NCBI RefSeq assembly: GCF_029392895.1
Contig: NZ_CP114200.1
Coordinates: 7,818,501 to 7,882,500 of the forward strand
DNA: 64,000 nt
Direction of reading: 5' to 3'
Source of the DNA: Streptomyces sp. 71268
Lineage (GTDB): Bacteria; Actinomycetota; Actinomycetes; Streptomycetales; Streptomycetaceae
Each line of letters starts with the position of its first letter. Within the stretch, counting starts at the first letter, position 1. Below the pieces are notes generated by a model. The model ran no database searches and was not told where the DNA came from. It saw nothing but the letters and a program-made list of their open reading frames with translations. Of this stretch, positions 6,333-48,504 are shown piece by piece. The position numbers and the translations under genes are program-made.

Positions 6333-6336
6333 CGGG

Positions 6337-10211: not shown

Positions 10212-10329
10212 CGCTGCTCCCCTGGCCAGTCGGCCGTGGCGGAGGCCCGCGTGACGCGGTGGGCCCGACCCAAGATCCCGGGGTCGTGCCTGCCGTACCA
10301 CGCCGTAGTCCGCGACGGCGTCAGTCGCT

Positions 10330-14768: not shown

Positions 14769-14841
14769 CGCGCGGTCAGCGTATGGGCCAGGCCGGCGGG
14801 CTCAGCCCCGCTCCCCTCGGTGAGCGGCGCGGCCGGATCGG

Positions 14842-22770: not shown

Positions 22771-22783
22771 GGAGAACACCAGC

Positions 22784-27031: not shown

Positions 27032-29440
27032 TCACCCTCGCACGGCCAACGCCCGCACCTCGAAGGTGCGCCCATCGGCCAGCCAGAGATCTTGAGGGCC
27101 TGGCAGCATCTCGCTGAACGTCACGACGGGGCGGTCCGTGCCGTTCGGGGCGTGGCGCAGGAGGCCCGCGAACGCGCCGACGGACAGCGGGTTGCGGAAG
27201 TCGAGCAGGGTGGGCTTCGGCTCCCACGGCAGGCGTACGAAGACCAGCTCAGGCATGCCCTGCTCGAACCGGAACGCCCGTGCGGCCAGGAGCTGTTCGG
27301 CGTCCCGCAGTCCGCCGATGGCGGGGGCGGGCGTCCGCCAGGTGGCCCGCTGCGCCACGGTGCGCCCGACGACGACGCGGGGCCGCAGTGGCCCCAGGCC
27401 GAACGGCACGCTCTGCACAGCGGGAAAGGAGAGCGCGGCCAGCGGGTCGAAGGTGGCGGTGGCGGGACGGACGGCGGGCAGCAGCCACAGTGGACCGTGC
27501 GAGTCCCAGAGTGTGACGCTGCCCCCCTCGTCGCCCTCGTTCGATTGGCTCGATTCTCTCCGTACGGTCAGCTGCGAGGCGGGCAGGGCCGCGTGGTCCG
27601 GTAGATGGGGGCGCAGCTGCACCGCGACGGCGGGCTGTCGGTACTGGAAGATCTTGGTGTCGCGGCCGGTGACCAGCCAGGCCGCCCTGCGCCCGGTGCG
27701 CTGGAGCGCGCCGAACAGCCAGCTGTCCCGCCGCGCGTGGGCCCCGGGGTCCCGCAGGCGCGCGAAGTGGTCCGTCGGGAAGACGGACAGCAGATGCCCG
27801 GCGTGCGCCTCGCCGAGGACCCAGCGCAGGTCGCCCCGGAACGCGGCCGTCGCGTCAGGGGCCGCGAGCAAGAGGTCGACGGAGGTGAAGACCGGCCCGG
27901 TCACGGCGTTCGTGAGCGACATCAACTCCGCCGGCTTCAGGCGTACTTCATCGGCGGACTCACCCACGAGCGCGGCCATCTCCGTCTCGGCCGGGGTCGG
28001 GGCCGACACGGCAGGCAGGGCCGCGGCGGCGCGGAGGAAGGTGGGCAGTGGAACCGCGGGCCTGCCGGGCCACTCCCGGTCGTACAGCGCGGCGGCGGCC
28101 CGCTGGTGCTGCCGGTGCCGCTGGCAGGCGACCGCGGCCCAGTAGGTGAGGACGGGGGCGAGGTCGTCGGGCAGTTCCGCGGCGGCCGGGCCGCCGACGG
28201 TCAGGGAGAGACGGTTCTCGCGCTCCTCGAACAGCACGCTGCGGTCGGCGTACATCCGACCGCCGCCCTGCCGGGGAGTCCCGCCGGTCAGCGCGGCGAC
28301 GCGGTTCTCCGCCCTGCCGAGCGCCGCGCGCCGGGCGACGCTTCCCGAGGCCGTCCCGAACGCCCGCATGTCCGCGCGCAGTTCGCCCAGCCGTGCCAGC
28401 CACTCCCGCGCCGCGGCTCGCGGCCCCAGGTCCCGCAGCCAGGCTTCGAGCGAGGCGAGCGGGTCGGCGGTCCACAGGTCGAGCGGCACCTGGCGGACGA
28501 GCGCCCCTATCCCGAGAAGCCGGTCCGGCGGCGGGTCCGGGACGGGTGGGGGTGGGGCGTCCGCGCCGGGGCGGAGAGCCGACCAGAGTTCCGCTTCGCT
28601 CGGGCTCACCCGCGTCGAGCGCCCGCTCGGCAGATGCGTCAGCCGCCCCTCCGTCAGCGTGAACATCGGCGACCTGCGCAGCACCAGGTGGTGGGCGAAC
28701 TCCGGCTCGGCGGCGATTAGTTCGGCCAATTCGCGGACCGTTCGGGGGCTGCTGAACACCACCGGAGGCCCGTGCCCGGGCGTGCCGTCGACGCGCAGCG
28801 GCTCCGGCGCGTCCGGGCGGAAGGTGGCGGCACCGATCGGTCCGAAGTAGCTGTTGGTCTCGTTCTTGGCGACCAGGCGCTGTAGATACAGCAGGAACCG
28901 GTGCTCCAGGCTGCGGACGCGGCTGGTGCGCGTCGGGGGCAGCGGGGCGTGCGCGAAGCGGTGGAGCGCCTCGCCGAAGGACGGGCTGAGCAGGCCGACG
29001 GCCTCCAACAGCGTTTCCCCGCTGGCAAGTTCGTGCAGCCGCCGCCGTAGCGTCGGGACGCCTTCGGTCCAACTCCCGGACAGGCGGGACTCGGCTTCCC
29101 GTACCGCCTCAAGCCGTCCGTTCCACTCCCGCAGCGCGTCTCGTACGCCGGCCGGTGCCGCCTCCGGTGCCGCCACCGGGCGGTTCTTGCCCACCGCCGT
29201 ACGGCACTTGCTGAGCACGCGGCGCGTCTCGGGGTCACCGGCCGCGTCGACGGCGGCGGGGAACGCGGCGGTCAGCAGCTCGGCCCGGTGCTGACGGGCG
29301 GCCGCCCAGCGCGCGTCCAGCTCGGCCTGCGCGGCGAGCAGCGGGGGAGGGGACAGCCGCTCCCACCAGGAGAAGGGGAATCCGGCCATCCGCAGGGCGG
29401 CCTCCGGGTACACCGACCAGCCGCCCGTCGTGTCCGTCAC
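27032..29440 (-). CDS. LanB N-terminal-type tRNA-dependent enzyme 1 (putative PEARL)
   Basis: This 802-residue protein of the lantibiotic-dehydratase N-terminal (glutamylation-domain) family is recognised by AKNETNSYFGPIGAATF, RMYADRSVLFEERE and the C-terminal PKPTLLDFRNPLSVGAF. LanB N-domains use aminoacyl-tRNA. Stand-alone versions without the C-terminal elimination domain are known as PEARLs and add an amino acid to the C-terminus of a scaffold peptide. No elimination domain is fused here, and none is encoded separately in the cluster. GTG at 29,440 overlaps the TldE stop (GTGA). It is the last gene of the minus-strand operon. The amino acid it uses cannot be read from the sequence. Confidence 0.82.
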   Translation of the reverse strand: MTDTTGGWSVYPEAALRMAGFPFSWWERLSPPPLLAAQAELDARWAAARQHRAELLTAAFPAAVDAAGDPETRRVLSKCRTAVGKNRPVAAPEAAPAGVRDALREWNGRLEAVREAESRLSGSWTEGVPTLRRRLHELASGETLLEAVGLLSPSFGEALHRFAHAPLPPTRTSRVRSLEHRFLLYLQRLVAKNETNSYFGPIGAATFRPDAPEPLRVDGTPGHGPPVVFSSPRTVRELAELIAAEPEFAHHLVLRRSPMFTLTEGRLTHLPSGRSTRVSPSEAELWSALRPGADAPPPPVPDPPPDRLLGIGALVRQVPLDLWTADPLASLEAWLRDLGPRAAAREWLARLGELRADMRAFGTASGSVARRAALGRAENRVAALTGGTPRQGGGRMYADRSVLFEERENRLSLTVGGPAAAELPDDLAPVLTYWAAVACQRHRQHQRAAAALYDREWPGRPAVPLPTFLRAAAALPAVSAPTPAETEMAALVGESADEVRLKPAELMSLTNAVTGPVFTSVDLLLAAPDATAAFRGDLRWVLGEAHAGHLLSVFPTDHFARLRDPGAHARRDSWLFGALQRTGRRAAWLVTGRDTKIFQYRQPAVAVQLRPHLPDHAALPASQLTVRRESSQSNEGDEGGSVTLWDSHGPLWLLPAVRPATATFDPLAALSFPAVQSVPFGLGPLRPRVVVGRTVAQRATWRTPAPAIGGLRDAEQLLAARAFRFEQGMPELVFVRLPWEPKPTLLDFRNPLSVGAFAGLLRHAPNGTDRPVVTFSEMLPGPQDLWLADGRTFEVRALAVRG

Positions 29441-30675
29441 CCGACGCTCCCCTCGGAAAGGAGCACGGCGGGGGCGGCCAGGCCGCGGAAGACCGCCGAG
29501 TGGTGCAGCGTCGGGCCGCACGCCACCACCGTACGGAGCCAGCCGAAGAGCCCCACCTCCAACGTGACCGGGCCGACGGGACGGTCGCGCTCGCCGGCGC
29601 GCACGTGCCAGCCGAACAGCTCCAGGCGGATCTTCCGGCCGCCGTCGGTCCGTACGGCGGGGCGGCACACGGTGACCGCTTCGAGCCCGGTGCCGAGGAG
29701 GGTGCGCAGCTCGTCCACTCCGTCGGAACCACCGCTCGCACCGGCCCCGCCACCGCCCTGTGGCAGCAGCGCGAAGCCGCGGACGGCGGGCCCTGTGGGG
29801 CCGTCCGGCTGGCTGCGCACCGCACAGCCGTTGGGCGGGCACCCGAAGGCGGCGGCCGTCGCCCGCGAGTGCAGGAACCCGCGCAGGACGCCGGACTCCA
29901 GAAGGACGTTACGCGCCGTGGGCACGCCTTCGTCGTCGACGAGGGAGCCGTACGGCCCGTCCAGGCGCCCGTCGTCCACCACCGTGACGGCCGGGGCGGC
30001 GATCCGGCGGCCGACCCGCTCCCGCAGGGCCCGCATGCCGCCCAGCACGTTGGTGCCGTTGACCATGCTGGCGAGGAGGTTGACCAGGTGCAGGGCGACG
30101 GCCGGGCGCAACAGGACCGGCATCGTGCCCCGTAGCCCCGACCCGGCGTCCCGCACCGCGAGCAGTCCGAGGCGCTCCTCGCGCGGAACCAGCGGGTCGG
30201 GCAGCCGATCCCCCCAGGTGACGGCGCCCTCCAGGTGCTGCCCCCCGGCGCCGCCGACCCAGTGCCGCAGCCGCCGGTGCGTGTGCTCCCACCGGGTCAG
30301 CCCGTCGGCGTCCAGGACGGTGACCTCGCTGGACGTCTCGGCGTACTCGGCGTCGACGACCTCGGGGCAGGGCTGTCCGGTGGCGGGGTCGAGGAGGCAC
30401 GCGGACACCCGCTCCGCCGCGTCCGTCGGCGGTGGGTGCGGTAGCGGCGGCGCGGCGCCGTCGGTGAGGTCGGTGGACCAGTGGGAGCCGGTCCGCACCG
30501 ACACCACGACGGAGCGGTGGGTGCCGCCGCGCTGGGAGACCGCCCCGTCGTAGCCGGTGCGGTACGCGGAGGTGACGGAGTCCGTGACGCGGACGCGTAC
30601 CTCGTCCGCGTCGTGTGCGGCCCGGTGCGCGGCGATCCGCCGGGCGAGCCGGTCGGCGGGCGGGATGTCGGTCAT
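29437..30675 (-). CDS. TldE/PmbA-like protease subunit
   Basis: This 412-residue protein belongs to the TldE/PmbA half of the TldD/TldE metalloprotease family. It has an N-terminal domain with repeated beta strands (RSVVVSVRTGSHWSTDLTDG) and a C-terminal half with VTVVDDGRLDGPYGSLVDDEGVPTARN-type sequence, and VLLESGVLRGFLHSRATAA, the usual central block. As is normal for TldE, it lacks the HExxxH zinc site carried by the TldD partner. The heterodimer degrades unfolded peptides and matures microcin B17 and related RiPPs. Its start overlaps the TldD stop (ATGA), supporting a 1:1 complex. Confidence 0.85.
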   Translation of the reverse strand: MTDIPPADRLARRIAAHRAAHDADEVRVRVTDSVTSAYRTGYDGAVSQRGGTHRSVVVSVRTGSHWSTDLTDGAAPPLPHPPPTDAAERVSACLLDPATGQPCPEVVDAEYAETSSEVTVLDADGLTRWEHTHRRLRHWVGGAGGQHLEGAVTWGDRLPDPLVPREERLGLLAVRDAGSGLRGTMPVLLRPAVALHLVNLLASMVNGTNVLGGMRALRERVGRRIAAPAVTVVDDGRLDGPYGSLVDDEGVPTARNVLLESGVLRGFLHSRATAAAFGCPPNGCAVRSQPDGPTGPAVRGFALLPQGGGGAGASGGSDGVDELRTLLGTGLEAVTVCRPAVRTDGGRKIRLELFGWHVRAGERDRPVGPVTLEVGLFGWLRTVVACGPTLHHSAVFRGLAAPAVLLSEGSVG

Positions 30676-32048
30676 GCGCCGGTGACCCCCAGGGCACGGA
30701 TGCGGACGGTGGGCTGCCCGACCGACACTTTGAGCGGGAACTGCCCCTGTTTGTTGCAGTGGTAGCCGTACGCCAGGAAGTCCAGGTCGTCGCAGACGAC
30801 GTCGATCCGCCGCAGGACGTCCGTGCCGGAGCCGTGCAGGGTCGCCGACCGTACGGGAGCGGTGATGCGGCCGTTCTCGACGAGGAAGCTCTCGGTGACG
30901 TCGGCGGTGAACTCGCCGCCGCTCATGTCGGTCTCGCCGGTCACGACGGACCGCACGTACAGCCCGCGACGGATGCCCGCGAGCGCCTCCTCCGGCGGGG
31001 CCTGGCCCGCCGCGAGATACGTACAGCTCATCCGGGACAGCGCGGGGTGGGCGTGGTCGAGGCGTCGGCCGTTGCCGGTCGCGGGGTGGCCGGTACGCCG
31101 GGACACCTCGCCGTCGGCGAGGTATCCCGCGAGCACGCCCCGGTCGATGAGGGGGGTCGGCCCGGCGGCCCGGCCCTCGTCGTCGACCCGGTACAGCGGC
31201 GCCCAGCTCGGCATGCCGGGGTCGTCGACGACGGTCACCAGGGGCGAGGCCACGCGTCGGCCGAGCAGGTCCTGGTAGGCGCCCCCGGGCGCGCACGCCA
31301 CGTCGGCCTCCAGGCCGTGCCCGCACACCTCGTGCAGCAGCGCGGCGGGCCCGGCGGGCCCGAGGACCACCGGCAGTTCGCCCTCGGGCGGGTCGACCGC
31401 GTCGGTCCGCGCCAGGGCGGCGCGTACCACCTCGTCGGCGGCGGCCAGGTGCCGGTCGCCCTTGAGCAGCAGCTCCAGGGACGTGGCGGAGACGATGCGC
31501 AGGCCGCGCGCGGTCGCCGGGGCGCCGGCGATCCGCGCCCCAACGCGCAGCTCCAGATACAGCCGGTCGTCGGTGGCCAGGGTCCCGTCGGCGCGCAGAA
31601 CGGCGATACGGGTACGGGTGGCGTCGGCGTTGATCAGCGGAACGAGCCCCGGGTGGCCACCGCTGAGCATGCGGTCGGCCAGCTGTCCGGCGAGGCGCGG
31701 CAGCGCCGCCGCCACCTCGGCGGGCAGCTCGTCCCCGGCGTCCAGCGCCTCCCGCCCGGCGGCCTCGGGAGCGGCGGCCGCGCCGGAGCCCTGGGCGGCC
31801 TCGGCGAGGCGGTGCAGTGCGGCGGCCGAGCAGGCGCCGGTGAACGTGTGGCGGCGCGCGCCGGGGCCGACGGTCTCCAGGGCCGAGCCCGCGGTGCTGT
31901 GCCGGGTCGAGGTGACGGCGTCACCGCGCAGGGCGGTCTGCTGCGTGGCGCCGCGGCGCAGCAACGCGAGGGTGGCCGGGCCCAGTTCGCGCAGCACCGG
32001 AGCCAGCGCGGCGTGCTCGCCGTCGCCGAACAGCTCGGCGGGGCTCAC
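30672..32048 (-). CDS. TldD-like zinc metalloprotease
   Basis: This 458-residue TldD-family protein has the zinc motif HEVCGH (H-E-x-x-x-H, about residues 238-243) in ALLHEVCGHGLEAD. LVTVVDDPGMPSWAPLYRVD and DEGRAAGPTPLIDRGVLAGY follow, then SGGEFTADVTESFLVENGRI and YHCNKQGQFP, all standard TldD blocks. It should cut peptides together with TldE encoded next. In a pathway built on a carrier peptide, it is the natural candidate to release the finished C-terminal residues. GTG at 32,048 overlaps the stop of LanB-like 2 (GTGA). The N-terminus is somewhat divergent. Confidence 0.88.
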   Translation of the reverse strand: MSPAELFGDGEHAALAPVLRELGPATLALLRRGATQQTALRGDAVTSTRHSTAGSALETVGPGARRHTFTGACSAAALHRLAEAAQGSGAAAAPEAAGREALDAGDELPAEVAAALPRLAGQLADRMLSGGHPGLVPLINADATRTRIAVLRADGTLATDDRLYLELRVGARIAGAPATARGLRIVSATSLELLLKGDRHLAAADEVVRAALARTDAVDPPEGELPVVLGPAGPAALLHEVCGHGLEADVACAPGGAYQDLLGRRVASPLVTVVDDPGMPSWAPLYRVDDEGRAAGPTPLIDRGVLAGYLADGEVSRRTGHPATGNGRRLDHAHPALSRMSCTYLAAGQAPPEEALAGIRRGLYVRSVVTGETDMSGGEFTADVTESFLVENGRITAPVRSATLHGSGTDVLRRIDVVCDDLDFLAYGYHCNKQGQFPLKVSVGQPTVRIRALGVTGA

Positions 32049-34513
32049 TCCGCGTCCCCTCGTCCGGTCTCTCCCAGGCGCGCCGACACTCCTGGTGGTC
32101 CCGGTTGTCCCGGGCCGTTCGTCCGGTCGAGCACCATCGTCGTACGCAGTTCGGCGCAGTGTCTGCCCCGCTCTCCGCGCAACCACAGCCCGTCGGGTCC
32201 CGGCAGCAGCTCCGTGAGGACCACGTGGTCCCGCACCGCCCGGGCCGAGAGGTGGCGGCCCAGGTCGAGCAGCGCGGGCGCCCGCAGGTCGAGGAGTACG
32301 GGCTTGCGCTCGCCCGGCACCTTGAGGAAGCCACGGCGCGGCAGCCCGTGGGCGGTGGCCGCCGCGCGGGCGGTGCGAAGAAGCCGCAGTTCGTCGACCG
32401 CCTCGCCCTGCCGTGGGAACAGCTCGGCGCGGTCCACCTCCCAGCGGGCCCGCGCCAGGACGACATCGCCGAGCACCACGCGCGGTGTGCGAGGGGACTG
32501 CCCGAAGCGGACGGGACGGACCCGGGGTGGGGCGAGGACGTTGTGCACGTCGGAGTCCAACTCGCCGTGATGGAGGAGGAAGTGCGGTACGCCGGGCGCG
32601 GTGCACACCAGCCTGCCGCCGCGCAGCACGACCCCCACGTCGGCCAGCGGCAGGCGCGGCCGGTCGCCGTGCGGCGGCGTACTGCCGAGGTCGACCACCG
32701 GGCCGGGGAAGTCGAACGGCACGATCTTCGCCCGGCGGGAGCCGAGCACGACCGCCATCGTGGTGTCCGCGCAGGCGCGGCGCAGGAGGTCGGCGCCCGC
32801 CTCCTGGACCTGCTGCCGCTGGGGGTGGAACTGCAGCGCCCACCCCCAGATCAGCAGGGTGTCGTGGCACTCGGCGAGCACCAGGTCGCCGTCGCCCGCG
32901 AGGACGTCGGCGAGGCTTTCGGCCCGGAACATCACGTCGGGCGAGGCGATCAGCGGGTCGGTACCGAGGTCCACCGGGGGGAGGTCGGCCGGGTCGACGC
33001 GCAGCGGGCGGTCGGGATCGGTGTGTGCCGCCCGCTCCACGAGTTCCGCCAGGCGCAGACCCGCGGGCGTGAGCGGCCCGTCGTCCGGTGGTGCCGCGTC
33101 TGTCGCGTCTGGTGCGGGCGTACGCAGCAGGGTGAGCAGCGGGACCGTGGCGCCCGAGGCGAGTTCGGGGTGGCGCTCCAGGAACTGTCGGGTGAGCCGG
33201 GCGTGGCGGGCCACGGCCTCGGCGGCGAGCAGGTCGAGCGCCGGTGCGAGCCGATCGCGCAGCCGGTCCCGCAGCGCGCGCCCGAGCGGCAGCGGGCTGA
33301 CACTGCCCAGCGCCTCCTCGTGCACCACCAGGCGGTCCGCGTACCACTCGCCGCCGCCACGGCGCACCGCTCCGTCTCCCTGGCGGGCGATCTCCCGCTC
33401 CAGCTCGGCGAGCAGCTCCCGCCGTCGCTCAAGGCCCGCCGTGCCGAAGGCCGCCAACCGCCCCTGGACACGGTCCAGAAGGTGGAGCCAGTCCGCCCCG
33501 GTGGGGAACGAGGCGACCTCCGCGCGCAGCCACCCGAGCGCGTCGGTGACGGTTACCGGCGGGCGGCAGTCGAGGAGGAGCAGGCCGCGGTCCGCCGCGT
33601 GCCGCGCCGTCGCGAGGACCGTGTCGGGGGAGGCGCCGAGCGACCGGGCCAGTTCCGTCACCGTGTGGCGGCCGTCGGCGGCGCGCAGCAGTGCCAGGGT
33701 GGCGGGCGGCAGGCTCGGCCGCTTGCCCGCGACGGTGAGCGGCTCCGCGCGGGAGACGAGGCCGCTGGTGCGCGGGCGCAGGTACGGCTGGACGGCGGGA
33801 TCGGCCGCGACCGCGTCGGCGAGGACCACCACCGCCCAGTACGCGAGCGAGGCCGAACGCAGCGCCGGGGCCGAGACGAGGGGCTCGGTGCCGGTCGGCT
33901 CCTGGCCGAACTCGGCGTAGTTGACGGGGCCGAAGAACGACGTGGTCTCGTTCTTGGCGGACAGCCGCTGCAGGTACGCGGCGAACTGGCGGCGCAGTCT
34001 GCGGGCGGGGCCCCGGGAGGGGCGTGCCGCCAGGGCGGACAGTTCGCCGATGCCACGGTCGTGCATCGAGGGGCTGGACAGCCACACGGCCTCGCGCAGG
34101 GCGGGGTCCGCGACGGCCTCGACGAGCGCCCGGTGGCTCTCCCCGGTCTCCTCGTCCGCGCACCACCCGGCGGTGTGCCGCGCGTCCCGCACGGCCGCGA
34201 GGCGCTTCGCGTACTCCTGGAGGGCCGAGCGCACCGGCTGGCTGTCGACGGCGGTGTACAGCTCGTCGGGTGCGTCGTCGTGGCGGCTCAGCGCCTTGCG
34301 CAGCTTGCGGGAGAGGCGCGGCTCCACCGCCGACGGGTCGGCCCGTATGGCGGCGACCACCCCGGTGACCGCGTCCGCGAGGTCCGACTCGGCCCGGTCG
34401 AGGTCAGCGAGGGCGGCGTCGGTGCGCGGCCAGTCGAGGGCTTCGACGAGCTGCCAGGGGAAGCCCGTGCTGCGGAGGATCGCGTGGTCGTGGAGCAGCC
34501 ATCGACCGCTCAT
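32045..34513 (-). CDS. LanB N-terminal-type tRNA-dependent enzyme 2 (putative PEARL)
   Basis: This 822-residue family member has LSAKNETTSFFGPVNYAEF, GEWYADRLVVHEEALG and a C-terminal RKPVLLDLRAPALLDLG. As with its relatives, there is no SpaB-C/elimination domain, so peptide-aminoacyl-tRNA ligation is the best hypothesis. It shares only the family motifs with the other four copies, which implies a different tRNA or peptide intermediate rather than redundancy. It is coupled to the flavin oxidoreductase gene upstream (ATGA) and to tldD downstream (GTGA). Confidence 0.82.
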   Translation of the reverse strand: MSGRWLLHDHAILRSTGFPWQLVEALDWPRTDAALADLDRAESDLADAVTGVVAAIRADPSAVEPRLSRKLRKALSRHDDAPDELYTAVDSQPVRSALQEYAKRLAAVRDARHTAGWCADEETGESHRALVEAVADPALREAVWLSSPSMHDRGIGELSALAARPSRGPARRLRRQFAAYLQRLSAKNETTSFFGPVNYAEFGQEPTGTEPLVSAPALRSASLAYWAVVVLADAVAADPAVQPYLRPRTSGLVSRAEPLTVAGKRPSLPPATLALLRAADGRHTVTELARSLGASPDTVLATARHAADRGLLLLDCRPPVTVTDALGWLRAEVASFPTGADWLHLLDRVQGRLAAFGTAGLERRRELLAELEREIARQGDGAVRRGGGEWYADRLVVHEEALGSVSPLPLGRALRDRLRDRLAPALDLLAAEAVARHARLTRQFLERHPELASGATVPLLTLLRTPAPDATDAAPPDDGPLTPAGLRLAELVERAAHTDPDRPLRVDPADLPPVDLGTDPLIASPDVMFRAESLADVLAGDGDLVLAECHDTLLIWGWALQFHPQRQQVQEAGADLLRRACADTTMAVVLGSRRAKIVPFDFPGPVVDLGSTPPHGDRPRLPLADVGVVLRGGRLVCTAPGVPHFLLHHGELDSDVHNVLAPPRVRPVRFGQSPRTPRVVLGDVVLARARWEVDRAELFPRQGEAVDELRLLRTARAAATAHGLPRRGFLKVPGERKPVLLDLRAPALLDLGRHLSARAVRDHVVLTELLPGPDGLWLRGERGRHCAELRTTMVLDRTNGPGQPGPPGVSARLGETGRGDAE

Positions 34514-38206: not shown

Positions 38207-38444
38207 TGCCCTCCCTCGGGAGCCACGAGGTCAGCGTGGAACCACTCCATGATCGGAAAGATTTCATTTGGGGGCCTTGCGTGTCAATAGTGACGGCCCC
38301 TACAGTTTCTTCGGCTACGCCTTGCTCGTCTTCTTCGAGTGCGCCCTGACCGGAGTGCGCCCTGACTGGTCCGAGCGGTTCCGCATAACGTCAGGGCGTC
38401 GGGGCGGGAATCGATAAAACACCGGATACAACGAGAGGATCGTC
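38207..38444. promoter_or_regulatory. Divergent control region of the RiPP-type cluster
   Basis: This 238-bp region between the minus operon and the scaffold-peptide gene is clearly richer in A/T than the coding DNA around it. It holds a perfect 14-nt direct repeat GAGTGCGCCCTGAC (38,337-38,350 and 38,353-38,366, 16-nt period). An inverted partial copy GTCAGGGCG lies at about 38,390-38,398. These are candidate operator sites for coordinated control of both operons. No promoter hexamers could be assigned with confidence, and no regulator gene lies inside the cluster. Confidence 0.55.
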
Positions 38445-38672
38445 ATGTCCGACAGCGAGAAGGTCCTGGACGCGAGCACCGCCGATGTGGTCGAGGGGGC
38501 CGAATCGGCTACGGGCGAAGTGGACAATGCCGAGGAGTTAACCCCTACGGCAGCCACCGAGCCCACTGAAGCGGCACAGCAGGACGGTCTTGACGACGGC
38601 CTCGACGACGATCTCGACGACATGGAATTCATGCTCGACGAGATCGAGAACCGCATCGCCCCGCTGGCCTGA
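38445..38672 (+). CDS. Acidic scaffold (precursor) peptide of the LanB/PEARL cluster
   Basis: This 75-residue peptide contains 13 Asp and 11 Glu against one Lys and one Arg. It has a Leu-Asp-Asp repeat tract at residues 48-59 and ends DEIENRIAPLA. There is no Cys, and the last Ser/Thr is Thr41, so the C-terminal 34 residues cannot form dehydroamino acids, thioethers or azoles. PEARL scaffold peptides are likewise short and acidic, and are extended at their C-terminus. A terminal Ala is in keeping with that use. GAGAGGA lies 5 nt before the ATG. Just 13 nt separate it from the next gene's ATG. It is the divergent first gene of the plus-strand operon. Confidence 0.85.
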   Translation: MSDSEKVLDASTADVVEGAESATGEVDNAEELTPTAATEPTEAAQQDGLDDGLDDDLDDMEFMLDEIENRIAPLA

Positions 38673-38685
38673 GAACATTCCCCAT

Positions 38686-40629: not shown

Positions 40630-43001
40630 GCTGGAAGCTCAGCGACACCTTCCTGCTGCGGCGGGCCGGCTTTCCCTTCGACCTGCTCGACGGGTTCGCC
40701 GCCACCGACCTCGCCCGCATCGCCCTGCGCTGGGCCGACGTCACGGAGGAGGCCGAGCGGCGGCGCCGGACACTGCTTGGCGAGCTGTTCCCCGCCGCCG
40801 TGGAACGGGCCCGCAAGCGCGAGGACCGAGCGGCGCTGCGCGGCCTGTCCGCGCTGCGCCGCTCGGTCGGCCGCCGCCGGGTCCGCCCCGCACCACCGGG
40901 CCTCGACGACGAGCTGACCCAAGCCCACCGCGCCTGGGCGGAACAGGCCGACCAAGCCACTCAGCTGGCCGCGGAGGCGCGACGCGCCGTGGCGCCCGCC
41001 TGGGAGAGCGCGGGCCGCGGCCTGCGCGAACTCGCCGAGCGCGAGGACATCTCCGACGCCCTCCTCCAACTCTCGCCCGACTTCCACGAAGCCACCACGC
41101 GCCACCTCGCCGACGACCGGCGCGCCGACGCGGCGTCCCGGGCGCACGACCGGCGCCTGTGGTCCTACCTGCAGCGCCTCGCCGCCAAGAACGAGACCAC
41201 CAGCGCCTTCGGTCCCGTGACCTTCGGCTCCTTCGGCGCGGTCGACGCACCGGAGACGGGCGCGGAACTCCCCGCCGGCGTACGCGAACGCGTCGCCTTC
41301 GTCTCGTTCTGGGCCGCCGTGGCCATCGGCCGCGCCGCGACCCGCAGCGCGGCCGTGCGCGACCTCGTCCCGGCGCGCCGCTTGCCCGCCGTCCACCTCG
41401 CCGGCGACCTGGCGACCCTGCCCGGCCGCCCGCCCGTCCAGCTCTCCGAGACCGAGCTGAGCGTGCTGCACGCCTGCGACGGCACCCGCGACGCCCGGGG
41501 CGTCGCCGACGCCACCCGGCTCGACATCGCCGCCACCCGCACGGCCCTCGCCGCCCTGGAGCGCTCCGCGCTCATCCAGCGGCGCTGCGAGCCGTGCTCC
41601 ACCAACCTCGACCCGCTGCACGACGTACTCGACCAACTCCCCGACACCCCCGAACTGCACGCGTTCACCGCCGCGGCGAGGGAGTTCGCCGATCTCGTCG
41701 CCGCCTTCGCCACCAGCCCGCCCGACGCGCGCCGCGCCGCGCTCCGCCGCGCCGAGCGGGCCTTCGAAACCCTCACGGGCACTCCCGCCCGACGCAACGC
41801 GGGCGGCACCTACGCCGACCGGCTCGTCCTCTTCGAGGACTGCCACGGAGACGGCCAGCCCCTCATCCTCCCAGAGCGCCTGCGGCAGCGCATCCAGCAC
41901 GAACTGCGCCCCGTGCTCGACTTCGGCCTCACCGTCGGACAGCGGGTGCGCACCGCCCACCGCCAGCTTGCCACCGAACTGCTCGCCGATACGGGCGAGT
42001 TGCCCTTCCTCGAATTCGCCGCGCGGCTCACCCGCGCCGTCGAAGAAGGCCGCCTGCGCCCGGCGCTCGCCCCGGTGGAACGGCTCCACGACGCCTACCG
42101 GAGCCTGGTCACCGACGCGAGCGACGGCCGCACCGCCCGCCTCGACCCCGACCGGCTGGCCGCACTCGGGCGGCCGGACGACACCCCCGCCTTCGTCAGC
42201 CCGGACCTGCTGCTCACCGGCGCCCGGCACGGCGAAGGTCCCCTCGTGCTCGGCGAGATCCACCCGTACGTCTTCGGCTGGGGCCTCCAGGGTGGCTTCG
42301 CCCCCGACCCGGAGGCGCTGCGGCAGGAACTGGCCGGGCTCCTGCCCGCCTGGGGCGGCCCCGACCGGCTCGCCACCGTGCTGCACCGCAGGCGCCACAA
42401 GGGTCTGATCACCAACCGCTTCCCGGGCACGTTCATCGAGGTCACCGGCACCGCGCGCAGCGCACCCCGCCGCGTGCCCATCAACGACCTGCGGGTCACC
42501 CTGCGCGACGGCGAGCCCACGCTGCTCGGCCCGGACGGCCCGCTGGAGCTGTACGTCGGCGAGGCGGACCACCCGCACCTGCGCGTCTTCGCCCCCGCCC
42601 AGGTCGAAGTGGCCCGGCTAGCCTTCGGCGAACGCACCCCGAGGGTCGTCGTCGGTGACGTCGTGGTGCAGCGCGCGGCCTGGCGGCCCGGTGACACCCA
42701 CCGTGAGGCCCTCGTGGCGGCCACCACCGAGCAACTGCCCGTGGCCGTCGCCTCGTTGCGCCGCGCCCTCGGCCTGCCCAGACATCTCTTCTCCCTCGGC
42801 GCGGGCGAGATCAAGCCCCTCTACCTGGACCTCGACTGCGTCCACAGCCAGTACGCGCTGCGACAGCAAGCCGAACGCGGGCCCCTGTCCCTGGTGGAGA
42901 TGCTCCCCGCGCCCGACCAGCTCTGGCTGCGCCGCTCCACCGGCGCCTTCACCAGCGAGCTGCGCCTGTCCATGTCCCGGGTGACGGGAGGCCGCGCGTG
43001 A
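40626..43001 (+). CDS. LanB N-terminal-type tRNA-dependent enzyme 4 (putative PEARL)
   Basis: This 791-residue protein has LAAKNETTSAFGPVTFGSF, GGTYADRLVLFEDCHG and IKPLYLDLDCVHSQYAL, and ends with the family's C-terminal SELRLSMSRV strand. There is no elimination domain. It is encoded on the same transcript as the scaffold peptide, so it may act first on it. The ATG at 40,626 overlaps the stop of the TPR-like gene. The open frame extends far upstream in the shadow of that gene, but the conserved N-terminal FLLRRAGFPFDLLD segment begins right after this ATG. Confidence 0.83.
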   Translation: MSWKLSDTFLLRRAGFPFDLLDGFAATDLARIALRWADVTEEAERRRRTLLGELFPAAVERARKREDRAALRGLSALRRSVGRRRVRPAPPGLDDELTQAHRAWAEQADQATQLAAEARRAVAPAWESAGRGLRELAEREDISDALLQLSPDFHEATTRHLADDRRADAASRAHDRRLWSYLQRLAAKNETTSAFGPVTFGSFGAVDAPETGAELPAGVRERVAFVSFWAAVAIGRAATRSAAVRDLVPARRLPAVHLAGDLATLPGRPPVQLSETELSVLHACDGTRDARGVADATRLDIAATRTALAALERSALIQRRCEPCSTNLDPLHDVLDQLPDTPELHAFTAAAREFADLVAAFATSPPDARRAALRRAERAFETLTGTPARRNAGGTYADRLVLFEDCHGDGQPLILPERLRQRIQHELRPVLDFGLTVGQRVRTAHRQLATELLADTGELPFLEFAARLTRAVEEGRLRPALAPVERLHDAYRSLVTDASDGRTARLDPDRLAALGRPDDTPAFVSPDLLLTGARHGEGPLVLGEIHPYVFGWGLQGGFAPDPEALRQELAGLLPAWGGPDRLATVLHRRRHKGLITNRFPGTFIEVTGTARSAPRRVPINDLRVTLRDGEPTLLGPDGPLELYVGEADHPHLRVFAPAQVEVARLAFGERTPRVVVGDVVVQRAAWRPGDTHREALVAATTEQLPVAVASLRRALGLPRHLFSLGAGEIKPLYLDLDCVHSQYALRQQAERGPLSLVEMLPAPDQLWLRRSTGAFTSELRLSMSRVTGGRA

Positions 43002-44437
43002 TCACGGTCGTGCCCCCGTACGGAGACCCCAGCCTCCGCCTCGCCCACCACCCCGAGGACGGTGAACTCCTCGACATCACCGTCGAGTTCGTGGCCGAGC
43101 TGGTGGCGGCGGCAGAGGACGGAAAGCCCTTCGACGGCGCCGAACCCGCCGACCGGGGCGCCGCGCTGATGCGGACGGCGGGGACCGCCGCACTGGGCAA
43201 CAGACACGCCGACACCGTGCACCGGCTGCGCGGCCTCGGCCCCGTCCTCGCCAGCCTCGCCACCCCGGCACACGGCGTACACCTGCGCCTCGACGACCTC
43301 GAACTGACCGAGGGAACCACCCAGAGCAGCGCCGACGTGCTCCGCGCCGCCGCCGCACCCGCCCCCTACCAGGCCGCCCTGGCCCGCGCCGCCGACCACG
43401 CCCGTACCCATCGCGAGGTCACCGTCGTCATCGAACGCGACCAACAACTGCCCGCCGCGCTGTGGCTCCTCGGCGAACTGCGCGCGGCACCACCCCGCAC
43501 CGTGCGGGTGACCGGTCGCTACGCCACCGCCTGCTGGCCCGTGCTGCGCACCCTGCCACCCTGCGCGGACGCGACGCTCGCCCCCACCCCCCGCGGGCTG
43601 CCCTGGCTCGTCGTCGACCCCTTCCGGCCCGATGCCCCGCCCGGCCTCCGCTGGCGGGAGCGGGCCGCCGACCCACGGCCGCACGGCCCCTGGGCGGGCC
43701 GGGTCGCCCTGCGCCACGTCCTCGCGGGGGACGCCGCGGGCGCCCGCACGGCCGTCCTCGGACTGTGCGCCAGCGGCGAACGCGTCCTCGGCCGCGGCGG
43801 CTCCACCGCCACCTGGCCGGAGCTGGCCAGGGCCGTGGAGGTGCTGCGCGCCCAGGGCACCCGCGTCCTCGCCGAAGTGTGGATCGGCGCCCCGGGCTGC
43901 GCACCCGACGAAGCCACGCGGGGCCTGCGGGCCGTGGCGGACACCGTGGACCGCGTCGCCGGACTTTGCGTCTTCGACTGGCCGGTCGGCTGGACCACGC
44001 CCCGCTGGGGCCCGTACCCGGTGACGTACGAGAAGACCGGCCACGACCTGGCCCGCCACCACAGCCTGCGCGGACAGCCGCCGCCGGCCGAACTCACCGC
44101 ACTCGTCACCGCCCTGGCCGGACCGCTGGCACGCGCCGGAGAGCTGGTTCCCGGCAGGGTCGCGGCCGCCTACCTCAGCGCCCCGCCCGCCCGCACCGGC
44201 CCGGGCCTCGGGCTCGACCCCGACGTGGTGCTCGGCGCCCACAGCGCCCGGACCGGCAAGGGCATCGCCGTCAACCTGCGCACCGGCGCCTGCACCAAGA
44301 TCGGCAGCGAGATGACCGCACTCCTCACCCGGCCCCCCGCGCGGCGAGCGGACGCCGTCCGCGCCGTCCTCGCGGCGCTGCCCGGGCCGCAGCTGTCCGC
44401 GCTGCGCGACGGCGACGTCCTGGTGGGGGTCGCGTGA
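42998..44437 (+). CDS. Degenerate radical-SAM-like cluster protein lacking the CxxxCxxC motif
   Basis: This 479-residue protein is of unnamed function. Parts resemble the later barrel strands of radical SAM enzymes from RiPP pathways: AQGTRVLAEVWIGAPGCAPD, LCVFDWPVGWTTPRWGPYPV and TYEKTGHDLARHH. No CxxxCxxC iron-sulfur motif occurs anywhere. The last 80 residues (VNLRTGACTKIGSEMTALL and DAVRAVLAALPG) have a winged-helix, PqqD-like look and could bind the scaffold peptide. It could be a non-catalytic peptide-delivery or scaffolding partner of LanB4 and LanB5, to which it is coupled by GTGA overlaps on both sides. This reading is tentative. Confidence 0.5.
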   Translation: MITVVPPYGDPSLRLAHHPEDGELLDITVEFVAELVAAAEDGKPFDGAEPADRGAALMRTAGTAALGNRHADTVHRLRGLGPVLASLATPAHGVHLRLDDLELTEGTTQSSADVLRAAAAPAPYQAALARAADHARTHREVTVVIERDQQLPAALWLLGELRAAPPRTVRVTGRYATACWPVLRTLPPCADATLAPTPRGLPWLVVDPFRPDAPPGLRWRERAADPRPHGPWAGRVALRHVLAGDAAGARTAVLGLCASGERVLGRGGSTATWPELARAVEVLRAQGTRVLAEVWIGAPGCAPDEATRGLRAVADTVDRVAGLCVFDWPVGWTTPRWGPYPVTYEKTGHDLARHHSLRGQPPPAELTALVTALAGPLARAGELVPGRVAAAYLSAPPARTGPGLGLDPDVVLGAHSARTGKGIAVNLRTGACTKIGSEMTALLTRPPARRADAVRAVLAALPGPQLSALRDGDVLVGVA

Positions 44438-46629
44438 GCGGGGCGTGGCGCATGTCGCCGGTCTTCGTGCTGCGCCACGCGGGGATGCCCTGGGAGTGGC
44501 TGGCCGACGTCGCCTTCCCCGCCGAACTGGTGCGGCTCGCCGACCACGCGGAGGACGACGACGCCGACGCCACCGCCCGCTTCGACGACGCGTACGCGAC
44601 CGAACGTGCCCGCCTGCGCGCGGAGTTGCACCGGCGGGCACGCCACGAGGAGTTCCGCGCCGCCGTGTTCCTCTCCAACCCCGGCATGTACGAGGGCATG
44701 CTGCGCGGATACCTGGACCGGGACGAGATACCGGACAACGCGCGCTTCCGGCGCGTCGAGCGACAGATCTACCTCTACCTCCAGCGGTTCTGCGGCAAGA
44801 ACGAGACCACCAGCACCTTCGGCCCGATGGGATACGGCGAACGGGACGACGGCGAGGGCCTGCGCGTCGAGCGGCGCGCACAGCGCCGCAAGGTCCTGCC
44901 CGCGCGCTGGGCACTGGAGGAACTGGCCCGCGCCCTGGCACGGGATGCCGCACTGCGCCGTCACATCCCGGTGCGCCGCCCCCTCCTGACCACGTCGGCG
45001 GACTCGGACCGGACGCCGCGCACGCCACCGGAGCGGGCCCTGTGGGACGCGCTGGCCGACGGCCCGCTGTCGCCCGCCGCGCTCGCCGACCGCCTCGGCA
45101 CCTCCGTCGCCGAGACCGGACGGCAACTGCGCCCGCTGCTCGCGGACGGACGGCTACACCGGGGGCTGCTGTTCCCCGCCGACGTCGTCGACGGCCTCGC
45201 CGGGCTGCGCGACGCGGTCGCGGCGCTGCCCGAAGTACCGGGCCGTGACGTCTGGTTGGCCGAGCTGGACGCCTTCGCCGACGGCCTGCGGGCGTTCGCC
45301 GCGGCCGGGGTGGACCAACGCGCACGCCTCCTGACCGCGCTGGAGACCAGGTTCACGGAACTGACCGGAGTCCCCGCCCGCCGTGGGGCCGGAGACGTCT
45401 ACGCGGACCGCCTCATCCTCTTCGAGGAGGCGTCCTCCCCCTTCCACCTCAGGGTCGGAGACGACCTCGCGCGGAGTGTCGAACGCCAGGTGGCCGACGG
45501 ACTCGACCTCTCCGCCGCCGCGGGCACCGCCGTCCAGCGCGACTACCAGGAGCGGATGGCCGCCGTGCTGCGGGAGCTGGGGGGCTCGGCGCGGTTCACC
45601 GAGTACGCGGCCGCCGCCAAGCCCCAGGGGGAGATGAGCTCAAGCTTCGGCGGCCACCAGCACACCACCACCGTCGACGTGCCGCCGGGGGACGACGTCA
45701 CCCTGCCCGCCCCGGCCGAGCTCGCGGCGCCCCAGCGCTACGCACTCCCCGACATCTGCCTGACCTCCCCGTTCGGCCCCCGCCCCGGTGTCCTGCTCGC
45801 CCGCGTGCACCACCACCTGCTCCTGGAGGGCTGGCTCACCACCTTCTGGGACGACCCCGACCGCATCACCCGGCAAGTACGGACCTGGCTCACCGGCACC
45901 GCCCCCGGACGGCAGCTCGCCGCGCTCGCCACCACCCGGCGCAACAAGGGCTTCTACCGGTTCCCGGGGCGACGCGTCCTCATCGCGCACGTCGACCACG
46001 AGGGCGGCACCGACACGGTGGCGGGCGACCGGCTGACCGTACGGCTGCGCGACGGCGCGCCGCAGCTCACCGACCCGGACGGGCACCGCGTGCTGCTGTA
46101 CCCGATGCTCGCCGACCTCACCACGTACCCGCCGATCGCGGCCCTGACGGACGCCCCCGTCCTGCACCTGCCGGTCCGGCAGGCCGACCCGGGGCGGGCC
46201 CTCGGGCGAGTGCGGGTCGGCGACGCCGTCTACCAACGGGCCCGCTGGGAACTGGAGCTGACGGAACTGCGCGGCCTGCGCGGCAGCGCGGCCTTCCGGT
46301 GGCTGCGCCGCACCGCGCGCCGCACCGGGCTGCCCCGGTTCTTCTTCGTCCGCGCGGAGAGCGAACGCAAACCCCTCCTCATCGACTCCTGGTCGCCCTT
46401 CGCCGTGGACGTGCTCTGCCACCTGGCACGGGACGTCGACCGCTGCCGGGCCGAGGAGATGTATCCGGCACCCGAGGACCTCTGGCTCCGAGACGAGCGC
46501 GGGCACTACACGTGCGAGCTGCGAGTACAGTTCTTGCGCGCGGTGGACGGCCACGTCGACGAAGCGGGTGACCGCGACGGCGCGACGGATGGCCACACCG
46601 ACTCGGCAGGCGAGAGGACGGCACCGTGA
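44434..46629 (+). CDS. LanB N-terminal-type tRNA-dependent enzyme 5 (putative PEARL)
   Basis: At 731 residues this is the shortest copy. It has FCGKNETTSTFGPMGYGE, GDVYADRLILFEEASS and ERKPLLIDSWSPFAVDVL, then CELRVQFLRAVDG. It lacks part of the N-terminal helical region seen in the other four. No elimination domain is present. GTG at 44,434 overlaps the preceding stop, and the conserved start VFVLRHAGMPWEWLADV lies 9 residues in. A hydrophilic tail rich in Asp and Gly precedes the stop, which overlaps the exporter gene (GTGA). Confidence 0.82.
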   Translation: MSGAWRMSPVFVLRHAGMPWEWLADVAFPAELVRLADHAEDDDADATARFDDAYATERARLRAELHRRARHEEFRAAVFLSNPGMYEGMLRGYLDRDEIPDNARFRRVERQIYLYLQRFCGKNETTSTFGPMGYGERDDGEGLRVERRAQRRKVLPARWALEELARALARDAALRRHIPVRRPLLTTSADSDRTPRTPPERALWDALADGPLSPAALADRLGTSVAETGRQLRPLLADGRLHRGLLFPADVVDGLAGLRDAVAALPEVPGRDVWLAELDAFADGLRAFAAAGVDQRARLLTALETRFTELTGVPARRGAGDVYADRLILFEEASSPFHLRVGDDLARSVERQVADGLDLSAAAGTAVQRDYQERMAAVLRELGGSARFTEYAAAAKPQGEMSSSFGGHQHTTTVDVPPGDDVTLPAPAELAAPQRYALPDICLTSPFGPRPGVLLARVHHHLLLEGWLTTFWDDPDRITRQVRTWLTGTAPGRQLAALATTRRNKGFYRFPGRRVLIAHVDHEGGTDTVAGDRLTVRLRDGAPQLTDPDGHRVLLYPMLADLTTYPPIAALTDAPVLHLPVRQADPGRALGRVRVGDAVYQRARWELELTELRGLRGSAAFRWLRRTARRTGLPRFFFVRAESERKPLLIDSWSPFAVDVLCHLARDVDRCRAEEMYPAPEDLWLRDERGHYTCELRVQFLRAVDGHVDEAGDRDGATDGHTDSAGERTAP

Positions 46630-47846
46630 TCGGCCACTACCGGACCTTCTTCGCCCGCCCCGGCGTGCCGTGGCTGGCGTCCTTCGGCCTGGTGGGACGG
46701 CTGCCGAACGGCATGCTGAGCCTGGTCTTCGTCCTGGCCACCGCCGAAAGCACCGGGTCCTACGCCATCGCCGGGGCCGCCGCCGCCTGCTACACGGTGG
46801 GCACCGCCCTCGGCAACCCCCTGTGGAGCCGAGGCGTCGACCGCCTCGGCGCGCGCGCCGTGCTGGCCGGCACCGGCATCGCGCAGAGCGCCCTGCTCCT
46901 CGTCGCCGCCGCCGTACTGACCGGCGAGGACCGCAGCGCCGTACTCCTGGTGCTGCTCGCCGCCCTGTGCGGGGTGCTGCTTCCGCCGCTGAACGCCGTG
47001 ATGCGGTCCCTCTGGTCACGGATGTTCAGCGGGTCCGAGCTCAAGACGACGGCCTTCGCGTACGAATCCGTCGTCACCGACCTGGTCTTCATCGTCGGCC
47101 CCTTCCTGGTGGCCGCCGTGATGGCGGTCGCCGACCCCGGCCTCGCGCTGGTGGCGGCCGCGGTGGCGACGGCCGTCGGCTGCGTCCTGGTGGCCGTCAG
47201 CCCGCAGGCCAGGGCCGTCCCACCCGCCGAGCAGGGCGACCGGCACTGGCTTGGACCCCTGCGGTTCCGCGCCGTACTCGGCCTGCTGCCCGTCGGGTTC
47301 CTGTTGATCGGCAGCATCGTCGCCATCGAGGTGACGCTCGTGTCCTTCGCCGACATCAGGGGCACGCCCAGCCTGTCCGGCGTGCTGATCGCGGTGCTCT
47401 CGGTGGGCGGTGTGGCAGGCGGACTCTACTGGGGGGCACGGCGCCAACCCGGCACGCACGTCCAGCAGCTCGTCGTCCTCCTCGGCGCCCTGGGCGCGGG
47501 CTGGGGACTGCTCGCCGTGACGCGGAACCCCTGGGTCCTCGGCGGTCTGCTGCTGCTCGCCGGTCTGGTGCTCAACCCCGCGATCACCGCGCAGTTCTCC
47601 GCCATGGACGACGTGGCGCCACCGGAGATGATCACCGAGTCGTTCGGCTGGCTCAACGCGATGACTTCGGCGGGCTCGGCGGCGGGTGCGACGCTCGCCG
47701 GTCTCCTCGTCTCGGAGCGCGCGGAGCCCGGCTTCCTGCTCGCGGCGGGCATGTGCCTCCTCGGCTGCCTCGTCGCGGCGGCGTTCCAGGGCCCGTGGCG
47801 AAGCGCCGGCGCGGCGCCGGAGAAGCCGGTGGAGCAGGCGAGTTGA
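46626..47846 (+). CDS. MFS transporter, probable product exporter
   Basis: This 406-residue membrane protein of the major facilitator superfamily has about twelve hydrophobic helices. LWSRGVDRLGARAVLAG at the loop between helices 2 and 3 corresponds to the MFS signature region (G-x-x-x-D-R-x-G-x-R). FLLIGSIVAIEVTLVSFADI and later helices complete the fold. It is coupled to LanB5 by a GTGA overlap, so it is expressed with the biosynthetic enzymes and likely exports the end product or gives self-resistance. An ABC peptide exporter with a peptidase domain is absent, which fits a small released molecule rather than a secreted peptide. Confidence 0.85.
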   Translation: MIGHYRTFFARPGVPWLASFGLVGRLPNGMLSLVFVLATAESTGSYAIAGAAAACYTVGTALGNPLWSRGVDRLGARAVLAGTGIAQSALLLVAAAVLTGEDRSAVLLVLLAALCGVLLPPLNAVMRSLWSRMFSGSELKTTAFAYESVVTDLVFIVGPFLVAAVMAVADPGLALVAAAVATAVGCVLVAVSPQARAVPPAEQGDRHWLGPLRFRAVLGLLPVGFLLIGSIVAIEVTLVSFADIRGTPSLSGVLIAVLSVGGVAGGLYWGARRQPGTHVQQLVVLLGALGAGWGLLAVTRNPWVLGGLLLLAGLVLNPAITAQFSAMDDVAPPEMITESFGWLNAMTSAGSAAGATLAGLLVSERAEPGFLLAAGMCLLGCLVAAAFQGPWRSAGAAPEKPVEQAS

Positions 47847-47895
47847 GGGGCGCGGACGGCGCAGCCAGACATGCGTGGAAGGGAAACGGAACACC

Positions 47896-48504
47896 ATGGC
47901 CATGAGCAGCCCCCGCCCCAAGGTGGTGTGCGTCAGCGGTTCGCTGCCGCCGGACTCCAAGACCGAACGCCTGGCGCTGTGGTGCGCCACGGCCCTCGGT
48001 GACCTGGGCGCGGACGTGGTCCTCTACCGAGGCGCCGACATCGAGTTCCCGCACTACCGCATACTGCCCGCCGAGCGGGACAAGCCCTTACAGCGCTACC
48101 TGGAGGACCTCAAGGAGGCCGACGGCGTCGTCCTGATCTCCCCCACGTACCACGGCACCGTGTCCGGCCTACTGAAGAACGCCCTCGACTACGTGAACGA
48201 CCTCATCGGCGAACCCCGCCCGTTCCTCGACGGCCGCCCCGTCGGCTGCGTCGCGGTGGCCGCGGGCGACCAGGGCGCGACCGCCACGCTGACCACGCTG
48301 CGCACCATCGCCCACGCGCTGCGGGCCTGGCCGACACCGCTGGGCGTGGCGGCCACGGGCCCGTCCGCCGCGCTCGACGCCGAGGGCGGCCCGGCCGACG
48401 ACCGCCTCGCGGCACAGCTCCAGATCATGTTCGGCCAGGTACTCAGCCTGGCGGTGCCCCATGCGCGCAGGCGCGGCCGCAGGACCAGCTCCTCGCCCTC
48501 GTGA
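47896..48504 (+). CDS. NADPH-dependent FMN reductase family protein
   Basis: This 202-residue flavodoxin-like protein has the FMN phosphate loop VCVSGSLPPDSKTERLA and the family motif ISPTYHGTVSGLLKNALDY, characteristic of NADPH-dependent FMN reductases (SsuE/azoreductase type). It could supply reduced FMN to a hydroxylase or act directly on a product intermediate. No FMN-dependent monooxygenase lies beside it, so its partner is open. The ATG at 47,896 is 50 nt after the exporter gene; a second ATG two codons later is possible. It is the last gene of the plus operon. Confidence 0.88.
   Translation: MAMSSPRPKVVCVSGSLPPDSKTERLALWCATALGDLGADVVLYRGADIEFPHYRILPAERDKPLQRYLEDLKEADGVVLISPTYHGTVSGLLKNALDYVNDLIGEPRPFLDGRPVGCVAVAAGDQGATATLTTLRTIAHALRAWPTPLGVAATGPSAALDAEGGPADDRLAAQLQIMFGQVLSLAVPHARRRGRRTSSSPS

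Follow-up and report, generated by a model that had tools for sequence, protein, structure and literature searches.

Why should one cassette hold five different ligases that resemble the N-terminal domain of LanB dehydratases, and what would each of them add? The question is raised by a 64,000-nucleotide stretch of Streptomyces sp. 71268 (contig NZ_CP114200.1, positions 7,818,501 to 7,882,500; hereafter the window), in which an earlier note, made from the letters alone, had recognized five such proteins in a divergent cluster. We call them LB1 to LB5. The cluster class itself is a known one, the ammosamide type, to which the clusters for the cytotoxic ammosamides belong. What is new here, judged by the loci compared, is that the presence of LB1 and LB3 is tied to carrier peptides encoded short of their full length. 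From the point at which the carrier gene stops, roles are predicted for all five ligases, including two clades without an assigned function. In 2022 the specificity of peptide aminoacyl-tRNA ligases (PEARLs) was described as not predictable (PMC9303977). If carrier length does go with PEARL clade, this would give a first rule for it. The cassette also has the look of a compact set of genes for making a pyrroloiminoquinone.

The carrier gene assigns the cassette to the ammosamide/lymphostin family, scoring above the cut-off of the NCBIfam leader model (Table 1). All 25 homologues listed, the window's own included, end in RIAPLA, and the conserved tail EFMLDEIENRIAPLA contains no Ser, Thr or Cys. 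The ammosamide carrier encodes PLALA before the Trp; the window carrier ends in APLA, two residues short of it. The adjoining gene encodes a homologue of the Trp trihydroxylases AmmC1 and BhaC1 (here C1). Its K378, N458 and K631 match Lys350, Asn432 and Lys602 of AmmC1 by spacing and are invariant (17/17), so that hydroxylase activity is predicted from the homology and this site. The Pfam models for TPR gave no match to the C1 protein. A C1 profile matched in 25 of 396 Actinomycetota genomes; beyond the window's own genome the matches listed were short (17.8–27.3 bits) and were taken as generic TPR proteins.

The remaining genes complete the set. Profile searches bore out the TldD/E, glycine-oxidase-like, TPR-type and exporter genes of the earlier note. 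The protein described there as radical-SAM-like without cysteines has six Cys; it does lack CxxxCxxC, and a radical-SAM-like fold without this motif is the mark of Amm10, which is conserved in ammosamide-like clusters. A flavin mononucleotide (FMN) reductase gene, which the note had passed over, is 50% identical to a frame at the S. uncialis locus, 55% to one at the Lentzea locus and 41% to one at the MJM8645 locus. Precursor, C1-type TPR protein, Amm10-like protein, glycine oxidase, TldD/E and quinone-reductase-like protein together make up the ammosamide/bha set, and the idea of a product of unknown kind from an undescribed type of cluster is not supported.

The five LanB-like proteins were confirmed as intact open reading frames. 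PF04738 scored above its cut-off in four of them; LB1, which shares 28–32% identity with the other four, had no Pfam match at all and was recognized by fold. Its predicted structure (pLDDT 81.8) matched TbtB (6ec8) in Foldseek with an E value of 1.3e-25, along with other LanBs. KNET-x-S-x-FGP is present in all five, as the note had stated; YADR is present in only four, and LB3 has FADR. The PF04738 membership and a nearest fold that belongs to a glutamylation enzyme would suit split LanB dehydratases, which glutamylate Ser/Thr while elimination is supplied elsewhere. The evidence leaves this explanation next to no probability. A search of the complete 8.38-Mb genome, and of S. buecherae, gave no match to the elimination domain SpaB-C (PF14028). 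The search was able to detect the domain, because 12 of the 20 genomes covered matched (a separate set of 14 control genomes gave none). The carrier is of the ammosamide leader type, and its tail offers no residue to dehydrate.

Two residues carry the assignment. Arg803 of TglB is reported to distinguish PEARLs from split LanBs, and a His to be highly conserved in PEARLs (PMC11117183). The Arg was found in 84 of the 84 proteins of our PEARL set, the window five included, and in none of 11 LanB rows; the His was found in 84/84 versus 1/11. Two of these LanB rows (L071 and L078) are the same gene, and a PF14028 match accompanies all eight rows examined for it, which are those other than the three Bacilli rows (L113–L115). 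Column D517, taken for Asp542 of TglB, was rejected as a PEARL marker: it is Asp in 84/84 PEARLs but also in 9/11 LanB rows. A tree rooted on one LanB row kept the 84 PEARLs together, free of LanBs, on a single side of the root. Its local support was only 0.34, and the assignment therefore rests on the residues and not on the rooted tree. A sequence search of the Protein Data Bank for a PEARL matched only TbtB. Together these results support the five ligases as PEARLs and not dehydratases, with a predicted ligation activity.

To assign roles, we placed 84 PEARLs, drawn from 18 clusters, in a tree built by maximum likelihood with a quick method and SH-aLRT (approximate likelihood ratio test) support only. 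Five of 89 rows were shorter than 600 residues and were left out (two Anoxybacillus pieces, both halves of the LB3 of Streptomyces I05A-00742, and a Lentzea row cut at the end of the fetched region). The reference was S. uncialis DCA2648, a known ammosester producer (PMC8210675), whose locus holds C1, LB4-like, LB2-like, Amm10-like and LB5-like genes followed by TldD. LB4 grouped with S. uncialis 299984 (Ame8 by gene order) and LB5 with 306422 (Ame11 by gene order), both with a support of 100, and LB2 with 302602 (Ame9 by gene order) in a 16-row clade with an SH-aLRT value of 93. The LanB-like proteins of the ammosamide pathway are Amm8, 9, 11 and 18, and Amm9 is AmmB2 (PMC8210675); from gene order we infer that Amm8, 11 and 18 are AmmB1, B3 and B4. 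AmmB2 is reported to add Trp and AmmB3 to place Gly onto the ring, where a glycine oxidase leaves the Gly nitrogen, while AmmB1 takes a second ring nitrogen from Leu-tRNA (PMC11117183, PMC12715798). The window thus has, by tree orthology and the DAO/ThiO match, predicted Trp- and Gly-adding PEARLs with a glycine oxidase, a combination expected of the ammosamide type.

Because LB5 and LB4 are orthologous, by tree and gene order, to donors of nitrogen only, Gly and Leu would aminate the ring and not lengthen the chain. This bears on the proposal in the note that up to five residues are added stepwise to give a new peptide-like product. Five different PEARLs and a missing elimination domain had suggested it. 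The orthology of LB4 and LB5 to AmmB1 and AmmB3, which donate nitrogen to the indole (PMC11117183), argues against it, as does the presence of a glycine oxidase and C1; moreover, clusters with two to seven PEARLs share the same kind of carrier wherever a carrier was found. We regard stepwise addition as very improbable. The same range disposes of the claim that five PEARLs are exceptional or unprecedented: related clusters in our comparison reach seven, the number also reported for bha, of which four are assigned and three are called unassigned (PMC11117183).

The ammosamide pathway proper has a further pair of enzymes. AmmB4 is reported to attach an Arg that serves TldD/E as a mark; once TldD/E has acted, the dipeptide is split by the M20 enzyme Amm19 (PMC11117183, PMC12715798). 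This pair is absent from the window cassette. Ten of the 18 clusters hold a PEARL of the AmmB4 clade, but the window and S. buecherae have none. No M20 dipeptidase lay in the cassette among 14 of the 15 genome matches, which were the ones listed, and all 13 genes are otherwise assigned. Glu581 of AmmB4 is reported as the determinant for Arg (PMC12715798). At the best candidate column, which is only a hint since its numbering is unchecked, Glu was found in the five amm-type AmmB4 orthologues, Val in three class-d members, Ser in two others, and Pro, Ala, Leu, Gln and Leu in the window five. The class-d clusters look mixed: LB4 and LB5 group with the amm-type proteins, while LB2, LB1 and LB3 group, and TldD/E score, nearer to Saccharothrix and Actinoplanes. 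These mixed affinities suggest an exchange of modules between clusters.

The remaining two ligases, LB1 and LB3, were compared with the length of the carrier. A carrier was readable in 16 of the 18 tree clusters; Mxsp and Pseudovib, for which none was found, stand outside the count. Six carriers end in APLA (the window, S. buecherae, Streptomyces I05A-00742, Sphaerisporangium album, S. huiliensis and Anoxybacillus sediminis), and two further short ones end in APLG (Actinoplanes flavus) and APLGL (Saccharothrix). APLALA is encoded in S. uncialis, MJM8645, Lentzea, Actinomadura craniellae, Marinitenerispora, S. xanthophaeus, Actinoplanes siamensis and Actinomadura chibensis. Every one of the eight short-carrier clusters has relatives of LB1 and of LB3, and none of the eight APLALA clusters has them. 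The LB3 of I05A-00742 lies outside the tree and was counted by similarity alone (50% over 509 residues). In Anoxybacillus, the tree showed both clades before the APLA carrier was found. In the wider carrier survey, APLALA is encoded at 11 loci; at five of these, S. uncialis among them, the sequence continues beyond it. A. syzygii, LS1784 and a Myxococcaceae metagenome-assembled genome encode APLALA but are absent from the tree and so were not counted. BhaC1 is reported to need Leu-Ala before the Trp, a shorter spacer abolishing its activity, and the B. halodurans carrier BhaA to end in APLAL, with BhaB1 adding the final Ala before Trp (PMC9850906). Because the two clades follow the short carriers and BhaC1 requires Leu-Ala, LB1 and LB3 likely add the two missing residues, Leu and Ala. 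A literature search returned no description of the cassette and no link between carrier length and PEARL number; supplements were outside that search, so such a remark could exist.

Several findings weigh against this assignment. The short and full labels require two changes on the C1 tree, and one origin is possible; the correlation may therefore rest on a single event, as one or two changes suffice. Support for placing the Anoxybacillus proteins is no higher than 89 in the LB1 clade and 84 in the LB3 clade. BhaB1 is not among the sequences compared, which leaves both clades without a link to a known Ala adder. The C1 enzymes of this clade might also tolerate a Trp placed two residues closer. 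For the other roles, LB2 sits within its clade beside Saccharothrix and Actinoplanes proteins, the specificity of which is not known, and the Ame numbers were assigned by gene order, not by accession. An M20 gene stands beside the AmmB4-clade PEARL in all five amm-type clusters, but the other five holders of this clade have none nearby among the matches listed, so the role of the AmmB4 clade is not fixed. Finally, Saccharothrix has kept both LB1 and LB3 relatives, yet its carrier is just one residue short.

The last point also speaks for a different function. LB1, LB3 or both could act after the Trp, capping it as BhaB4 does with Asn or AmmB4 with Arg, while for C1 and LB2 of this clade a shorter spacer would simply suffice, with no change in the class of product. 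With AmmB4 and its M20 partner missing, another gate before TldD/E is plausible. Such capping would, however, leave the tracking of carrier length by both clades (8/8 versus 0/8) to be explained, and three class-d relatives carry an AmmB4-clade PEARL besides LB1 and LB3, so that a simple swap is insufficient. We consider capping unlikely, though it is the most serious competitor to tail extension by LB1 and LB3.

Some loci in this comparison deserve separate mention. The LB3 orthologue of I05A-00742 (L049, about 3,135–5,763) spans two overlapping frames, which may be a real split, decay or a sequencing error. The Anoxybacillus sediminis carrier (L066, frame at 14,836, minus strand) ends in DIEDKIAPLA, and its cluster holds seven PEARLs. 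The carriers of Saccharothrix (APLGL; L040, 8,740) and Actinoplanes flavus (APLG; L041, 8,704) have Gly for Ala, and their clusters gave no Amm10-like match and no LB5-clade PEARL. Eleven C1 loci, mostly myxobacterial (L015–L023, L028 and L031; L022 is titled Comamonas), yielded no carrier with the profile. By best match, ten of them hold C1, a glycine oxidase, an LB5-like and an LB2-like PEARL and an Amm10-like protein, and L031 has the same reduced set with its LB2-like gene cut at the locus end; a minimal set is possible. A search toward B. halodurans gave 22 protein matches, none named as that species, and eight of 398 Bacilli genomes matched. Of five of these eight checked for PEARLs, three had LanB-size matches, one had none, and G496 had a PEARL piece in two frames (contig C29, 23,383–27,687; L124), about 2 kb from a C1-like gene. 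The 33 kb around that gene showed no carrier and no other PEARL; the locus is therefore probably the remnant of a bha-type cluster, with no bearing on the placement of BhaB1.

Taking tail extension by LB1 and LB3 as the starting point, we think it rather probable that the cassette is a short-carrier version of the ammosamide system, in which ligases finish the tail and load Trp, and further enzymes convert it to an ammosamide-type pyrroloiminoquinone. LB1 and LB3 would extend ...IAPLA with Leu and Ala, and LB2 would attach Trp from its tRNA. C1 would introduce three hydroxyl groups into the indole, the redox state being set by the FMN reductase. LB5 would place Gly on the ring, the glycine oxidase would strip it to the amine, and LB4 would bring the second nitrogen from Leu-tRNA. 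TldD/E would then release the modified Trp, and the product would cyclize and leave through the MFS pump. The sequences themselves show the gene content, the orthology, the conserved residues and the correlation of carrier length with LB1 and LB3; the reactions are predictions. No halogenase, N-methyltransferase or amide synthetase was recognized among the 13 cassette genes, to which the search for these three was confined, and no M20 dipeptidase or AmmB4-type Arg ligase was recognized there either. The product is therefore predicted to be close to unchlorinated, unmethylated ammosamaic acid.

More tentatively, the carrier could be self-rebuilding. The ribosome would leave it two residues short, and LB1 and LB3, as dedicated tRNA-dependent ligases, would finish it with Leu-Ala, perhaps again each time the co-segregating TldD/E protease had taken off the tail along with the product. 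A module for handling the scaffold (short carrier, LB1, LB3, Trp ligase and TldD/E), mobile between clusters, would here be joined to a ring-chemistry module (C1, LB4, LB5, Amm10-like protein and glycine oxidase). We hold this extension to be possible, with somewhat less confidence than doubt.

The known systems place these features in context. The amm and ame clusters (Streptomyces CNR-698 and S. uncialis DCA2648) share with the window the ammosamide-leader carrier, C1, three orthologous PEARLs (Leu-N, Trp and Gly-N), the Amm10-like protein, glycine oxidase, TldD/E and FMN reductase. They differ in the carrier end (APLALA, with an extension in S. uncialis, versus APLA), in the two extra PEARL clades of the window, and in AmmB4, the M20 dipeptidase and the chlorination, methylation and amidation enzymes, for which no counterpart was recognized in the cassette. 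The bha cluster of Bacillus halodurans C-125 likewise has a short carrier (APLAL), completed with Ala by a PEARL before Trp, and, according to the papers (the sequences were not compared), multiple PEARLs, C1, a glycine oxidase and a quinone reductase. It differs in a carrier with one more encoded residue, in its seven PEARLs and in a product that is not known. In the Anoxybacillus cluster, its nearest bacillar stand-in, no Amm10-like gene was found, unlike in the window. The 3-thiaglutamate and 3-thiahomoleucine pearlins (tgl and tmo) follow the same logic of carrier peptide and PEARL, but they have a single Cys-adding PEARL and other tailoring enzymes (TglHI, TmoHI, TmoS and TmoD; PMC9303977, PMC11002830). 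Split LanB and thiopeptide dehydratases such as TbtB share the fold and the PF04738 domain; they lack the PEARL Arg and His and need a SpaB-C partner, which was not found in this genome.

The extent of the cassette was given by a block common to S. buecherae AC541, which comprises 21.6 kb and 13 genes and corresponds to 7,845,489–7,867,056 in the genome (one contig of 8,379,354 bases). Outside the block, about 39 kb per side in AC541 gave only one further match above 150 bp (654 bp, 65%). No direct or inverted repeats of at least 11 nt, as attachment sites, were found at the cassette ends. All 13 genes have full-length open counterparts in AC541, where the carrier has 68 residues as against 75 in the window. 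The differences between the two peak at the third codon position in 12 of the 13 genes, the FMN reductase being the exception; this is the pattern expected of kept proteins. Because all 13 genes and the whole block are conserved in AC541, the occurrence of five ligases is more than chance. The genes form two divergent operons, with the order LB3, glycine oxidase, LB2, TldD, TldE and LB1 on the minus strand and carrier, C1, LB4, Amm10-like protein, LB5, MFS exporter and FMN reductase on the plus strand, and most adjoining genes overlap by 4–20 bases. The strain, as Streptomyces ID71268, is cultured, has published metabolomics and is a close relative of S. buecherae (PMC10127220). The 32 antiSMASH regions published there leave a gap at 7,686,752–7,913,092; the cassette falls inside it and is not among the regions of that table.

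Table 1. Features of the cassette, in window coordinates, with predicted roles and the evidence for each.
Feature	Position	Strand	Evidence
Whole cassette (block common to S. buecherae AC541)	26,989-48,556		blastn 95.2-96.5% nucleotide identity
LB1, PEARL, predicted carrier-tail extender (or post-Trp adder)	27,032-29,440	-	tree; TbtB-like fold; GTG start
TldE-like subunit, without HExxxH	29,437-30,675	-	PF19289 118.9 bits; ATG start
TldD-like metalloprotease subunit, HEVCGH motif	30,672-32,048	-	PF19289 173.3 bits; NF008006 203.7 bits (below cut-off 513)
LB2, PEARL, AmmB2-type, predicted Trp adder	32,045-34,513	-	PF04738 76.5 bits; tree
FAD glycine-oxidase-like protein, Amm14/BhaG-type	34,510-35,634	-	PF01266 221.6 bits; TIGR02352 ThiO 192.6 bits (below cut-off 250.8)
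LB3, PEARL, predicted carrier-tail extender	35,615-38,206	-	PF04738 34.4 bits; tree
Divergent intergenic region between both operons	38,207-38,444		gene layout
Carrier (precursor) peptide, 75 aa, ending ...EFMLDEIENRIAPLA	38,445-38,672	+	NF033737 Amm_Lyn_leader 34.5 bits, cut-off 30
C1, AmmC1/BhaC1-type FMN-dependent Trp trihydroxylase homologue (TPR family)	38,686-40,629	+	34% identity to S. uncialis C1
LB4, PEARL, AmmB1-type, predicted Leu-tRNA-dependent ring amination (C5)	40,626-43,001	+	PF04738 45.7 bits; tree
Amm10-like protein, radical-SAM-like fold, no CxxxCxxC	42,998-44,437	+	
LB5, PEARL, AmmB3-type, predicted Gly-tRNA-dependent ring amination (C7)	44,434-46,629	+	PF04738 61.7 bits; tree
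MFS exporter	46,626-47,846	+	PF07690 88.4 bits
NADPH-dependent FMN reductase, candidate quinone reductase (Amm17/BhaH role)	47,896-48,504	+	PF03358 97.4 bits; start codon read from frame

Two further loci of the window lie outside the cassette. At 21,295–24,643 on the plus strand, a PurF-like amidophosphoribosyltransferase (TIGR01134, 377.5 bits; cut-off 350) adjoins a fatty-acyl-AMP-ligase-like protein (PF00501, 211.2 bits), which is an odd pairing. At 3,436–10,361 on the minus strand, an ABC-transporter ATPase gene stands near a toroid protein of the Prenyltrans/squalene-cyclase type; this may be an uptake locus, which is a guess, and it is unrelated to the cassette.

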